A stretch of 43,723 nucleotides of DNA from Chloroflexota bacterium (lineage in GTDB: Bacteria > Chloroflexota > Dehalococcoidia > Dehalococcoidales > JAUVZV01): assembly GCA_030602375.1 (NCBI GenBank), contig JAUVZV010000003.1, positions 1-43,723 of the forward strand, read 5' to 3'. Position 1 is the stretch's first letter. Each line of letters opens with the position of its first letter. The position numbers and the translations under genes are program-made. Shown piece by piece: positions 28,703 through 33,489 of this stretch. The notes beneath the pieces are model-generated. The model searched no databases. It was not told the DNA's origin and was given only the letters and a program-made list of their open reading frames with translations.

Positions 28703-29506
28703 ATGAAGATTCTGGTAACCAATGATGATGGCATCTTTGCCGAAGGGCTGTGGATGCTGGTTGAGGCACTAAGGGACATGGCTCAGGTAGCAGTTGTAGC
28801 CCCGGATAGAGAGCAGAGTGCCATTGGCACGGCGGTTACCCTGCGCCAGCCACTGAGGGTGCGAAAAATAAAACCTCCGGTCCCAGAGGTAGAGGCCTAC
28901 TCGGTAGAAGGCACTCCGGCTGACAGCGTCATCCTAGCTTTAGGCAAGCTGATTAAGGATAAAATAGATATGATTGTTTCCGGCATCAACCAAGGGCCAA
29001 ATTTAGGTGATGACGTGTTTATCTCGGGGACAGTTAGCGCTGCCCTGCAGGGGTATCTACATGGCCTTCCCGCCCTTGCTATTTCAGCAACTAATGCGGA
29101 CAGCCTCAATCTCAAGGAGGCAGCTAAGTTTGCTGTCCTAATGGTAAAGGGGATTAGCTCCAATCCCCTGGCAGCAGATGCCTTGCTTAATGTAAATCTG
29201 CCCGGTCTGCCCTTGGCCAAAGTAAAAGGGGTAAAAATCACCACCTTAGCCAGCAAAAGCCACACCGACACAGTTGAGGAAGGACATGATGGAAAACATG
29301 CCTACTACTGGCTGGTACGCCAAAAAGTAAACCGCGGTGCCCTTAAGACAACTGATATCGGGGCAATTGAGCAGGGTCATATTTCCATCACCCCCCTGCA
29401 TAGTAACCTGAAGAGCAAATCCTCATCTTCCACAATAGAAGATTTATGTGCCAAACTGCTAGATGACTTACGGGAATTAGCCAATACCAAAAGGAGGGGA
29501 ATATGA
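28703..29506 (+). CDS. surE: 5'/3'-nucleotidase SurE
   Basis: The 267-residue phosphatase begins KILVTNDDGIFAEGLWML, with the metal-binding Asp pair, and has VAPDREQSAIGTAVTL, the VSGINQGPNLGDDVFISGTVSAALQG loop and LNVNLP. SurE removes phosphate from nucleoside monophosphates and short polyphosphates. Length is normal, with a slightly longer C-terminus. It lies 11 bases after the Flx-type flavoprotein and overlaps the following SDR by four bases (ATGA). Whether it belongs to the Flx transcript is unknown. Confidence 0.95.
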   Translation: MKILVTNDDGIFAEGLWMLVEALRDMAQVAVVAPDREQSAIGTAVTLRQPLRVRKIKPPVPEVEAYSVEGTPADSVILALGKLIKDKIDMIVSGINQGPNLGDDVFISGTVSAALQGYLHGLPALAISATNADSLNLKEAAKFAVLMVKGISSNPLAADALLNVNLPGLPLAKVKGVKITTLASKSHTDTVEEGHDGKHAYYWLVRQKVNRGALKTTDIGAIEQGHISITPLHSNLKSKSSSSTIEDLCAKLLDDLRELANTKRRGI

Positions 29507-30276
29507 AGCAACCAAGTTTTTCTTTGGCAGGCGAGGTTGCCCTGGTGACTGGAGCCGCCCGTGGCATCGGACAATCTATAGCCCAGGGGCTGGCTGGGGC
29601 TGGTGCTGATGTGGCGATAAGCGATATCAACGCTGCCGGACTTGAGGAAACAGCCAAAGAAATAAAGAAAATTGGTAAAAACTCTCTGGCAATTGAAGCT
29701 GATGTCAGCACCAGAAAAGGCCGTGACAAGATGGTGAAAGAGACCTTGGCTCACTTCGGCAGGATTGATATTCTGGTAAATGATGCTGCCCTGCCACCCC
29801 TCTGGGGGCCTGTGATTGAGACTGATGAGGAAGGCTGGGACAGGATTATGAATACCAACCTCAAAGGGCTCTTCTTCCTCTGCGTAGCGGTAGCAAAAGA
29901 GGTGATGATACCCCAAAAGAGGGGTAACATCATCAACCTGGCTTCCATTGCCAGCTTCAAACCAGTCTGGGGCCAGGGTGCCTATGGTTTCAGTAAGGCT
30001 GCGGTGCTTATGGTAACCCAGATTCTAGCCTCGGAATGGGCAAAGTATGGTATCAGGGTTAATGCCATCGCCCCGAGACTGGTTAAGACCAAAATGACAG
30101 AAATAGTCTGGTCTGACCCGGAAAAGCTGAAAAAGCGACTAGAAAACATTGCCCTGGGACGCATCGCATATCCTGAAGATATGGTCGGGGCGGTTATTTA
30201 CTTTGCCTCTCAGGCTTCTGAATATGTCACCGGGCAGACGCTTCTCCTTGATGGAGGCATCGGCTTTGGACAATGA
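29503..30276 (+). CDS. SDR family oxidoreductase
   Basis: The 257-residue classical short-chain dehydrogenase has LVTGAARGIGQS (about 12-23), catalytic Ser in INLASIAS, the YGFSK active site and VTGQTLLLDGG near the end. The NNAG motif is replaced by VNDAALPP, an uncommon change of its second Asn to Asp. Substrate is unknown. GGAGGGGA precedes the ATG, which overlaps the surE stop. It is similar in layout to the SDR at 870-1721, both ending with VTGQTLLLDGG-type or TGETLLLDGG-type tails, so they may be paralogues. Confidence 0.85.
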   Translation: MKQPSFSLAGEVALVTGAARGIGQSIAQGLAGAGADVAISDINAAGLEETAKEIKKIGKNSLAIEADVSTRKGRDKMVKETLAHFGRIDILVNDAALPPLWGPVIETDEEGWDRIMNTNLKGLFFLCVAVAKEVMIPQKRGNIINLASIASFKPVWGQGAYGFSKAAVLMVTQILASEWAKYGIRVNAIAPRLVKTKMTEIVWSDPEKLKKRLENIALGRIAYPEDMVGAVIYFASQASEYVTGQTLLLDGGIGFGQ

Positions 30277-30318: not shown

Positions 30319-30348
30319 TTGACAAAAACATCTTAGTTCTGTTATAAT
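30319..30348 (+). promoter_or_regulatory. Strong promoter for the pan operon
   Basis: Perfect TTGACA (30319-30324), 18 bases, perfect TATAAT (30343-30348). Transcription should start near 30355, about 170 bases before the first gene. The leader contains three hairpins. Confidence 0.75.
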
Positions 30349-30360
30349 AATATAACTAAA

Positions 30361-30433
30361 TTGAGCCACCGTCTTTAAGGCGGTGAGTCTTTTTAAGTAA
30401 GTCGCTTGGATCAGAGATGACCGAGACGGCCAA
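30361..30433 (+). ncRNA. Candidate pan-motif leader RNA
   Basis: Two hairpins precede the terminator. The first, CACCGTC/GGCGGTG (30367-30385), has a five-base loop. The second, at 30406-30433, pairs TTGG with CCAA, then TC with GG and G with C, leaving two bulged adenosines (30410 and 30413) on the 5' side and a 12-base loop. A hairpin with two bulged adenosines upstream of pantothenate genes is how the pan RNA motif is described, and that motif is known from Chloroflexota. The position before panD-panB-panC agrees. I could not check the motif's exact consensus, so the name is provisional. Confidence 0.55.
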
Positions 30434-30455
30434 TAGTTTAGATATGGGTGGTTGA

Positions 30456-30495
30456 GTGCCTTCTCCTGCATTGGCGGGAGAGGGTATTTTTATTT
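30456..30495 (+). terminator. Intrinsic terminator / attenuator before the pan genes
   Basis: CCTTCTCCTGC (30459-30469), an ATTG loop and GCGGGAGAGGG (30474-30484) form an 11-pair stem, followed by TATTTTTATTT. It lies inside the leader, between the pan-like hairpin and the first gene, so read-through must be regulated or partial. Confidence 0.75.
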
Positions 30496-30522: not shown

Positions 30523-31407
30523 GTGCTCAAATTAGGATTCATTGGGGCGGGAATGGTAGGTACTGCTTTAGCCGTCGGGTTAAAAAGCAAGGGCTATCAG
30601 GTTGCGGCCGTATCCAGCCGAAGCCGGACTTCAGCCCAAAACCTAGCTCAGCAAGTTTCAGGCTGCCAGGTATTTGACACGAGCCAGGGTGTGGCTGAGA
30701 ATGCTGAATTTATCTTTATTACCACCCCCGATAATGCTATTTCAGAAGTGGTATCTTCGGTAAAGTGGCACCCCGGACAAAGTGTGGTTCACTGCAACGG
30801 TGCCGAGTCAACTCAAATTCTGGAGCCGGCCAAGAAACTGGGGGCTAAAGTGGGCACTTTTCACCCCCTACAGACCTTCGCCAGCGTGAAAGAGGCAATC
30901 CAGAATATCCCCGGCTCAACCTTTGCCATCGAAGCCGAAAAACCCTTACTTCCCACCCTCAAGGAGATAGCTTCTTCCCTTGGTGGTGAATTTATAGAGC
31001 TTAAAGCCGGCGACAAGGTGCTCTATCATGCAGCCGCAGTTATCGCCTGTAATTATATGGTAACACTGGTTAAGCTGGCTACTGACCTATGGCAGACTTT
31101 TGGCGTCCCACGCCGCCAAGCGACACGGGCCTTAATGCCACTGCTGCGAGGGACACTGCATAATATTGAGACTATCAGCATACCGAATTGCCTCACCGGC
31201 CCAATCGCCCGCGGTGACAGTGGGACTATAAAAAAGCACCTTGATACCCTGCAAAAAGCAGCGCCTGAACTCGTTTCTGTCTATCGAGAACTTGGACGGC
31301 AAACCATTCCCATTGCTCTAGATAAGGGCAAGATTAATAAACCCGAGGCGGAAAAGATGCAGGCATTATTGGGGCAGCAAAATACAAGCAAAAAGGCAAA
31401 GGGGTGA
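30523..31407 (+). CDS. DUF2520 Rossmann-fold protein, first gene of pan operon
   Basis: The 294-residue protein has an N-terminal NAD(P)-binding fold ([18 protein letters not shown]), an [14 protein letters not shown] strand-helix and a C-terminal helical DUF2520 domain (about 125-285). This layout resembles 6-phosphogluconate dehydrogenase-like reductases, including ketopantoate reductase and pyrroline-5-carboxylate reductase. It starts at GTG 30523, the only start codon after an in-frame stop. As the operon holds panD, panB and panC but no recognisable panE, this gene is a candidate for the ketopantoate reductase step. That function is inferred from context only. Confidence 0.75.
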
Positions 31408-31412
31408 GTCCA

Positions 31413-31790
31413 ATGAGAACGATGCTCAAAAGTAAAATCCACCGTGCCCGTGTTACCCAGGCTAATATTGACTATGAGGGCAGCATTACCATCGACAAAA
31501 GGCTGATGGAGGAGGCTGATATCCTACCCTACGAACAGGTAGAGGTGCTGGATATTAATAACGGGGCTCGCTGTACCACCTATGCCATTGAAGGCAACAG
31601 AGAGAGCGGTGAAATTTGCATCAATGGGGCTGCCGCCAGACTGGTCTTAAAGGGGGACACCATTATTATTCTGTCCTACTCGAAGGTAGAGGATGATGAA
31701 GCCCATAACTTTATGCCCAGGCTAATATACGTTGATGACAAGAATGCTATCACCCACACTAAGCGAACCATCGAGGCAATGCCTTTTTAA
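31413..31790 (+). CDS. panD: Aspartate 1-decarboxylase (pyruvoyl enzyme) precursor
   Basis: The protein is 125 residues from ATG 31413, with GGGGTGAG upstream; the track GTG at 31404 overlaps that RBS. The self-cleavage site is in DYEGSITID, where the Gly-Ser bond is cut to give the pyruvoyl group. INGAAARLV and [13 protein letters not shown] complete the family pattern. It makes beta-alanine for pantothenate. It begins five bases after the DUF2520 stop codon. Confidence 0.95.
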
Positions 31791-31800
31791 GGGGGAAATA

Positions 31801-32640
31801 ATGCGCGTTACTATAAATCAAGTAAAAGGGATGAAGAAGAAGGGTGAGAAAATCGCTATGCTCACCGCTTACGACTATTCTACCGCTAAGATAATTGATG
31901 AGGCGGATATACCACTAATCCTGGTTGGGGATAGCCTGGGTATGGTGGTCCTGGGCTACGAAACAACCATCCCGGTAACAATAGAAGAAATGATTCACCA
32001 CACCAAAGCTGTGGTTAGGGGTACCAAAAGGTCACTGATTGTTGGCGATATGCCTTTTATGACCTATCACCTAAGTGCGGAGGATGCCCTGCGTAACGCT
32101 GCCCGTTTTATTCAGGAAGCCGGTTGTCAGGCAGTTAAGCTTGAGGGTGGCGTCACTGTAGCTGAGAAGGTGAGGCGGGTTGTTGACTGCGGCATCCCGG
32201 TTATGGGTCATATTGGGCTTACCCCCCAGTCAATTCACCAGCTTGGCGGCTTTAAAGTTCAGGGCAAAACCCCCGAAGCTGCCATTAAACTGATTAAGGA
32301 TGCCCGGGCTCTGGAAGAGGCTGGGGCTTTTGCCATTGTGCTGGAGACGGTCCCGGCGCAACTGGCAAGCCTTATTACTCAGAAAGTAGACGTCCCTACC
32401 ATTGGCATTGGTGCTGGCATTGGCTGTGATGGCCAGATTCAAATTATCAATGATATCCTCGGTTTATTTACCGACTTTGTCCCCAAACATGCCAAGCAAT
32501 ATACAAAACTTGCCGAGATTATTCATAACGTTGTTAGCGAGTATGCCAGTGAGGTAAAGTCAGGTGGCTTCCCTACCGACCAGAACAGCTTCTTCTTGGA
32601 TGAAAGTGTTGCCGCTGAACTATCCAAATTAACCAAATAA
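31801..32640 (+). CDS. panB: 3-methyl-2-oxobutanoate hydroxymethyltransferase
   Basis: The protein is 279 residues from ATG 31801, preceded by AAGGGGGAA; the track start at 31732 lies inside panD. Ketopantoate synthesis residues are present: MLTAYDYSTAKIIDEADI, LVGDSLGMVVLGYETT, KLEGG, MGHIGLTPQS and PTIGIGAGIGCDGQ. The TIM-barrel enzyme adds a hydroxymethyl group from methylene-THF to 2-ketoisovalerate. Length is normal. It sits between panD and panC. Confidence 0.96.
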   Translation: MRVTINQVKGMKKKGEKIAMLTAYDYSTAKIIDEADIPLILVGDSLGMVVLGYETTIPVTIEEMIHHTKAVVRGTKRSLIVGDMPFMTYHLSAEDALRNAARFIQEAGCQAVKLEGGVTVAEKVRRVVDCGIPVMGHIGLTPQSIHQLGGFKVQGKTPEAAIKLIKDARALEEAGAFAIVLETVPAQLASLITQKVDVPTIGIGAGIGCDGQIQIINDILGLFTDFVPKHAKQYTKLAEIIHNVVSEYASEVKSGGFPTDQNSFFLDESVAAELSKLTK

Positions 32641-32655
32641 GATATATTGCTCCTT

Positions 32656-33489
32656 ATGCAAGTTGTCAAAACAATCAGCGAGATACGAAAAATAAGACCA
32701 AAGCTTGCCGAACCAGTAGGCTTTGTTCCCACCATGGGTTACCTGCATCAAGGGCATCTATCTTTAGTAAGATATGCCAGAGTTGAAAACCGTTCACTAG
32801 TGGTCAGTATCTTTGTTAATCCCACCCAATTTGGTCCCAGTGAGGATTTTGAGCGATACCCGCGTGACACCGAATGCGACCTGGCATTACTGGAAAACGA
32901 AAGGGTAGATATCGTCTTTATGCCATCAGCAGCAGAGATGTATCCGCCGCGGTTTAATAGCTGGGTAGAAGTCAGCCACGTAACCGAAAGACTTGAGGGA
33001 GCGTCTCGACCCGGGCACTTTAAGGGGGTAACCACTGTTGTTTGTAAGCTATTCAACATTCTCCAGCCCAATGTTGCCTACTTCGGACAGAAAGATGCCC
33101 AGCAGGCACTGGTTATCAAAAAGATGGTAGCTGAGCTTAATATGGACCTGAAGATAGTTACCCTGCCCACAGTGCGTGAGAGCGACGGTCTGGCGATGAG
33201 CAGTCGTAATACTTACCTTAACCCCAAAGAGCGCCAGGCAGCTCTGGTTCTCCACCAGGCGCTCAACTTAGCCCAAAAGCTATTCTCAGAGGGTGAAAGA
33301 GACGCTAGTCGTCTTCGCCGGGAGATGTTAAGTTTAATCGGGAAAGAGCCACTGGCAAAACCTGACTATGTCAGTGTTGCTGATACCGAAACCCTTGAGG
33401 AGTTAGATACCCTAACTTTGCCGGCTTTAGTATCACTGGCAGTAAAAATCGGTAAGACGAGACTCATAGATAATGTAATGCTGGAATAA
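32656..33489 (+). CDS. panC: Pantothenate synthetase
   Basis: The protein is 277 residues from ATG 32656; the track TTG at 32647 adds only three residues, and neither start has a clear RBS. It shows FVPTMGYLHQGHLSLV with the HxGH nucleotidyl-transfer motif, SIFVNPTQFGPSEDF, YFGQKDAQQ and the KMSKS-like SSRNTYL. It joins pantoate and beta-alanine with ATP. It is the last gene of the operon and is followed by a good terminator. Confidence 0.95.
   Translation: MQVVKTISEIRKIRPKLAEPVGFVPTMGYLHQGHLSLVRYARVENRSLVVSIFVNPTQFGPSEDFERYPRDTECDLALLENERVDIVFMPSAAEMYPPRFNSWVEVSHVTERLEGASRPGHFKGVTTVVCKLFNILQPNVAYFGQKDAQQALVIKKMVAELNMDLKIVTLPTVRESDGLAMSSRNTYLNPKERQAALVLHQALNLAQKLFSEGERDASRLRREMLSLIGKEPLAKPDYVSVADTETLEELDTLTLPALVSLAVKIGKTRLIDNVMLE

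Follow-up and report, generated by a model that had tools for sequence, protein, structure and literature searches.

In PyrR-binding attenuators, the hairpin recognized by the regulatory factor acts as an anti-antiterminator, the 3' strand of which is common to the antiterminator. The pan RNAs (Rfam RF01749) have been catalogued since 2010, and the literature that we searched, the main text of published papers, yielded no mechanism for them. According to the pan section of the work that described them, most, though not all, comprise two stems in tandem (Weinberg et al., 2010, PMC2864571), each such stem being marked by two conserved bulged adenosines.

We compared with these systems a leader found on the forward strand of a 43,723-nucleotide stretch of a Chloroflexota genome (contig JAUVZV010000003.1; hereafter, the window). 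From 5' to 3', it presents a promoter, a first hairpin (hairpin 1), a second hairpin (hairpin 2), an intrinsic terminator and a pantothenate operon. Our preferred reading, to which we assign a probability of about 60%, is that the leader is a pan-family cis-regulatory RNA acting by transcription attenuation, with hairpin 2 serving as an anti-antiterminator. The promoter (30319-30348), described as near-consensus in an earlier note made from the letters of the window, indeed matches the consensus at 12 of 12 positions, with TTGACA at -35 (30319-30324), a spacer of 18 nt and TATAAT at -10 (30343-30348) with the TG of an extended -10; transcription would be expected to start at about 30355. Of 163 relatives, 153 have a promoter-like site 5' of hairpin 2, the criterion being at least 9 of 12 consensus positions together with the obligatory A and T of the -10 box.

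The gene order DUF2520-panD-panB-panC given in the earlier note is borne out by profile matches for each gene. The first (30523-31407, GTG start) codes for a DUF2520/Rossmann-like protein (PF10728, 9.6e-39; PF10727, 7.3e-17); published work connects a DUF2520 protein with PanG, the ketopantoate reductase of Francisella (PMC4572677), and the window's version is probably a ketopantoate reductase of the PanG type. It is followed by panD, coding for aspartate 1-decarboxylase (31404-31790; PF02261 and TIGR00223 above cut-off), panB, coding for ketopantoate hydroxymethyltransferase (about 31801-32640; PF02548 and TIGR00222 above cut-off), the reading frame of which opens at 31732 with the ATG at 31801 as the likelier start, and panC, coding for pantoate-beta-alanine ligase (32647-33489; PF02569 and TIGR00018 above cut-off). 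Given the relationship of the DUF2520 protein to PanG, the operon would cover all the steps to pantothenate from ketoisovalerate and aspartate.

At the Rfam gathering threshold, there is no pan match in the window, where only tRNAs are detected, and these lie elsewhere in it. Under relaxed settings, RF01749 matches through model positions 61-87 only, which constitute the second hairpin of the tandem model, at 20.1 bits (E = 0.37) against a gathering cut-off of 36.2 bits, a figure that governs detection by the tandem model and is not a structural trait. The significant Rfam match by which the earlier note would have had its pan-like leader checked was thus not obtained. The match is partial because the relatives are tandem, while hairpin 1 of the window has lost its 5' bulged adenosine and lower-stem pairs. 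The identification itself stands through the relatives. We compared 30 leaders, namely that of the window and 29 others lying 5' of DUF2520 homologs from the same bacterial order; most of the relatives' leaders bear tandem pan hairpins, and 8 of 14 homologous leaders sampled pass the Rfam cut-off. A lineage covariance model built from 24 relatives, with the window left out, matches 30363-30431 over its full length at 54.5 bits (E = 3.9e-13). The hairpins also covary in related leaders: 28 leaders show 8 compensatory pairs, nearly all in hairpin 1, against 4.3 in shuffles, none of 500 of which scored as high.

The window's leader shares with described pan RNAs the stem with two conserved bulged adenosines (its hairpin 2), a place upstream of a panB/panC/panD operon, which here starts 93 nt 3' of hairpin 2 as expected of pan, and relatives from the same bacterial order that score above the Rfam cut-off; the tandem arrangement is retained in part, through a homologous but degenerate hairpin 1 in register. 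It differs in itself falling below that cut-off and in a hairpin 1 without the 5' bulged adenosine. Judged by sequence homology, it is a genuine but divergent pan element and not a new class; as it scores below the Rfam cut-off, we class it as a divergent variant, not a standard member. A whole-genome search of its own assembly found no second pan element, and a search of its GTDB family returned this genome alone.

Hairpin 2 (30402-30429), the canonical pan hairpin and the one reached by the partial Rfam match, is near-invariant in 163 leaders of the class. Its core of five base pairs, CUUGG/CCGAG (30405-30409/30421-30425), lies between A30410, bulged on the 5' side above it, and A30426, bulged on the 3' side below it, and these are the two bulged adenosines of the earlier note. 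The lower stem is UCG/CGG, and what had been read as a 12-base loop is made up of three further pairs, UCA/UGA, closing a GAGA tetraloop. The pattern TGGATC-N3..9-GACCGRGACGG has a single match in the window and none in 100 shuffles. Within the class, hairpin 2 is too conserved for covariation to be tested, compensatory variation of its pairs being seen solely between lineages.

Hairpin 1 (30364-30389), which the earlier note overlooked, is homologous to the first pan hairpin of the relatives: it aligns with hairpin 1 of 27 of them and falls within the match to the lineage covariance model. Its core is CACCG/CGGUG, and it retains the 3' bulged A30386, while the 5' bulged adenosine is now U30372 and the lower stem is partly gone; its sequence GAGCCACCGUCUUUAAGGCGGUGAGUC is the counterpart of the relatives' GAGCCAUCGACC-loop-GGCGGUGAGCU, with a poorer lower stem. 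Both bulged adenosines occur in a full hairpin-1 stem in 125 of the 163 class leaders (the window, with the 3' adenosine alone, is counted among the 163), and the stretch from hairpin 1 to hairpin 2 is the shortest in the aligned set. Hairpin 1 has probably decayed here, so that sensing would rest mainly on hairpin 2. By eye, the CCACC of hairpin 1 could pair over a long range with a GGUGG at about 30447-30452. A role for hairpin 1 as an early terminator was rejected as a general feature, a U4 run following it in only 10 of 115 relatives.

Eight leaders of one genus (L127, L129, L130, L132, L133, L134, L137 and L140) possess hairpin 2 alone, with the -10 box immediately 5' of it and, in most of them, an extended upper stem; L079 is a further single-hairpin relative, besides L129 and L130. 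A genus with hairpin 2 alone suggests that one hairpin is enough.

The earlier note had presented pan as a feature of Chloroflexota, and its range is in fact wider. Of 393 genomes sampled in the window's class, 185 gave pan matches at E <=0.5, 75 above the cut-off; pan matches also occur in 99 of 250 genomes from the phylum to which a Pectinatus genome belongs and in 95 of 146 from the class that contains a Desulfuromonadales genome; the groups around the latter two genomes are hereafter called Firmicutes and Desulfuromonadia, respectively. This distribution agrees with the published range, which, in the pan section of the original description, also takes in Firmicutes and deltaproteobacteria (PMC2864571). 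As a pattern search of contigs was too loose, giving many chance matches, we retained a match only if pan genes lay 3' of it.

Some of these leaders have distinctive neighbors. Four from the class (L007, L012, L018 and L023) are followed by a Peptidase_S58 (DmpA/P1) gene and then by DUF2520/PanG; this pan-regulon gene is absent from the pan section of Weinberg et al. (PMC2864571), and its product may free beta-alanine from peptides. In L176, a pan hairpin and a short terminator-like hairpin precede a type III pantothenate kinase gene (coaX), and hence the regulon likely extends to CoA synthesis, while in L171 the pan hairpin and a terminator lie upstream of an unexpected neighbor, a molybdopterin oxidoreductase-like ORF. 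Other leaders are terminator-less, with a gene start close 3' of hairpin 2 (L142, L151, L153, L156 and L174), an arrangement suggesting that control may be translational there. Inspection by eye revealed no terminator in a Bacillus-type panB leader (L319); there, the ribosome-binding site would be masked by a CUCCUC/GAGGAG hairpin, to the 5' arm of which the 3' tail of pan looks complementary.

The terminator of the window (30454-30489; -25.7 kcal/mol) has a loop of AUUG and a U-rich tail; its presence had been correctly noted, and we count 16 pairs in it, not 11. In our comparison of about 240 relatives from three bacterial lineages, an intrinsic terminator stands 3' of the pan hairpin in 150 of 163 leaders of the class, 62 of 67 in Firmicutes and 30 of 30 in Desulfuromonadia. 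Its 5' arm in the class reads CCYTCTC at 6 or 7 of the 7 positions in 135 of the 150, a conservation that a free terminator, which need only pair with itself, does not require, and at two U positions this arm varies less than the 3' strand of the terminator opposite it. The same 5' arm complements CCGAGACGG, the form that the hairpin-2 3' arm takes in the class, except at one position, which is mismatched in 148 of 150. Pairing covers all six core positions in 133 of the 150 when counted in the best-pairing registers, a procedure that favours paired cells.

The best complement of the hairpin-2 3' arm falls in the terminator 5' arm in 120 of 150 class leaders, 47 of 62 in Firmicutes and 17 of 30 in Desulfuromonadia, against 62.8, 24.4 and 7.7, respectively, expected from position. 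Likewise, the complement score is at or above the 95th percentile of unrelated terminators, drawn from 575, in 99 of 150, 19 of 62 and 17 of 30. These two standards replaced a dinucleotide-shuffle null for the arm duplex, which gave a modest result because a purine-rich 3' arm pairs with any pyrimidine-rich arm, including shuffled ones.

The register of the pairing is lineage-specific, with GAGACGGC used in the class and CGGAAGG in Firmicutes and Desulfuromonadia, where the lower stem and tail pair instead (CGGAAGG with CCUUCCG or CCUUUCG; CAGAAGG with CCUUCUG). That complementarity is kept while the register shifts argues against a single inherited sequence. In Firmicutes, a change from C-G to U-A at the lower-stem base x7 co-occurs with a change of the terminator partner, thus involving three strands: where x7 is G, the hairpin 5' arm has C in 52 of 53 and the terminator C or U in 41 of 45, and where it is A, they have U in 9 of 9 and 7 of 9, respectively, these counts too being taken in best-pairing registers and so favouring paired cells. 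When partners are exchanged within a group, the score falls only slightly (the own partner outscores the swapped one in 94 of 150, 42 of 62 and 17 of 30), indicating that covariation is weak relative to plain conservation.

In the window, the switching strand GAGACGGC (30423-30430), in the 3' arm of hairpin 2, would form the left half of an antiterminator, and the terminator 5' arm GCCUUCUC (30458-30465) its right half, with GAGA-C-GGC facing GCC-U-UCUC in seven pairs and one C.U mismatch, in keeping with the homologous complementarity of the relatives. We propose that hairpin 2, antiterminator and terminator are mutually exclusive through this complementarity. If a pan-binding factor, either protein or metabolite, held hairpin 2 folded, the terminator would form and the operon would be off; if hairpin 2 opened, its 3' arm would capture the terminator 5' arm, and RNA polymerase would read into panG-panD-panB-panC. 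The signal, we infer, would be sufficiency of pantothenate or CoA, and the sign of the control, bound being off, is our guess from pathway logic. The window's own antiterminator is short and unexceptional (complement score 17 against a null 95th percentile of 18; duplex rank 40 of 100 shuffles), and so the switch rests there on homology; taken by itself, the window would lend the model no support.

Attenuation is the likely mode, as the earlier note had supposed from a terminator adjoining pan, though it had related hairpin 2 to the terminator only by position. The pan section of Weinberg et al. (PMC2864571) contains no such role, with the hairpin-2 3' arm as an antiterminator strand. If the model is right, the leader would share with PyrR-binding attenuators (RF00515) the use of a factor-recognized hairpin as an anti-antiterminator, in a different pathway.

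Folding energies bear on the rival that survives best. In the window, hairpin 2 is more stable than the antiterminator by 6.1 kcal/mol as long as the terminator is incomplete, and the free RNA of relatives also tends to hairpin 2 (median 3.8 kcal/mol in the class); at folding equilibrium, the off state would then be the default, although equilibrium energies do not fix the default state. This preference, the existence of pan leaders without a terminator and the tandem hairpins, in which the discoverers saw a hint of binding by a dimeric protein (PMC2864571, pan section), are all consistent with the pan hairpins binding a protein, possibly dimeric, that controls the terminator or mRNA decay through contact with polymerase or Rho, or by blocking, the complementarity of the arms being a by-product of their purine- and pyrimidine-rich composition. 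We regard this as unlikely, if the least so of the alternatives, because complementarity of this kind is rare among unrelated terminators, persists across the shifts of register and involves a terminator arm conserved class-wide beyond the needs of self-pairing.

The losses in hairpin 1, the short stretch between the hairpins, the weak antiterminator and the very strong terminator might instead mean that control has decayed in this genome, leaving a weakly regulated or constitutive attenuator. However, hairpin 2, the promoter and the terminator 5' arm all retain their canonical form intact, and a whole genus of eight leaders has hairpin 2 alone. We regard decay as unlikely, slightly more so than protein binding.

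More doubtful is the possibility that pan acts as a riboswitch by binding a metabolite, either CoA or an intermediate of the pantothenate pathway, with hairpin 2 as the anti-antiterminator and one canonical hairpin sufficing. As in transcription-terminating riboswitches, an aptamer-like element precedes a competing antiterminator and terminator, but a ligand of pan is only hypothetical, and its small two-hairpin structure made the discoverers suspect a protein. Validated CoA riboswitches are absent from a 2022 review (PMC9971707); pan, were it one for CoA or a pantothenate intermediate, would be a class described as missing.

It is improbable that the terminator serves only to end transcription from the SDR gene that lies 5' of the leader (29503-30276), the promoter-leader arrangement being incidental: no terminator was found between the end of that gene at 30276 and 30367, but the terminator lies about 105 bp 3' of a perfect promoter, and the order promoter-pan-terminator recurs in relatives with other upstream DNA. 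The faintest prospect of all is a PyrR-binding attenuator, which gave the top sub-threshold Rfam match (26.5 bits, E = 0.1) and shares the layout in which a binding hairpin precedes an antiterminator and a terminator, but which we rejected since the score is far below the cut-off of 54 and confers no membership, the alignment includes several non-standard pairs, the resemblance of the CAGAGA loop is not conserved (the relatives mostly have GAUA or GACA loops), the operon is without a pyr gene, and the pan homology is far stronger, with the lineage pan model disfavouring PyrR.

The element itself belongs to a known family; our comparison suggests a specific, partly supported attenuation mechanism for pan. 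Competition between hairpin 2 and the terminator leads to single-base, falsifiable predictions, for which there are tractable hosts such as Bacillus, where pan lies 5' of panB. Such competition would also explain why hairpin 2 is near-frozen while hairpin 1 drifts, as it does in the window.
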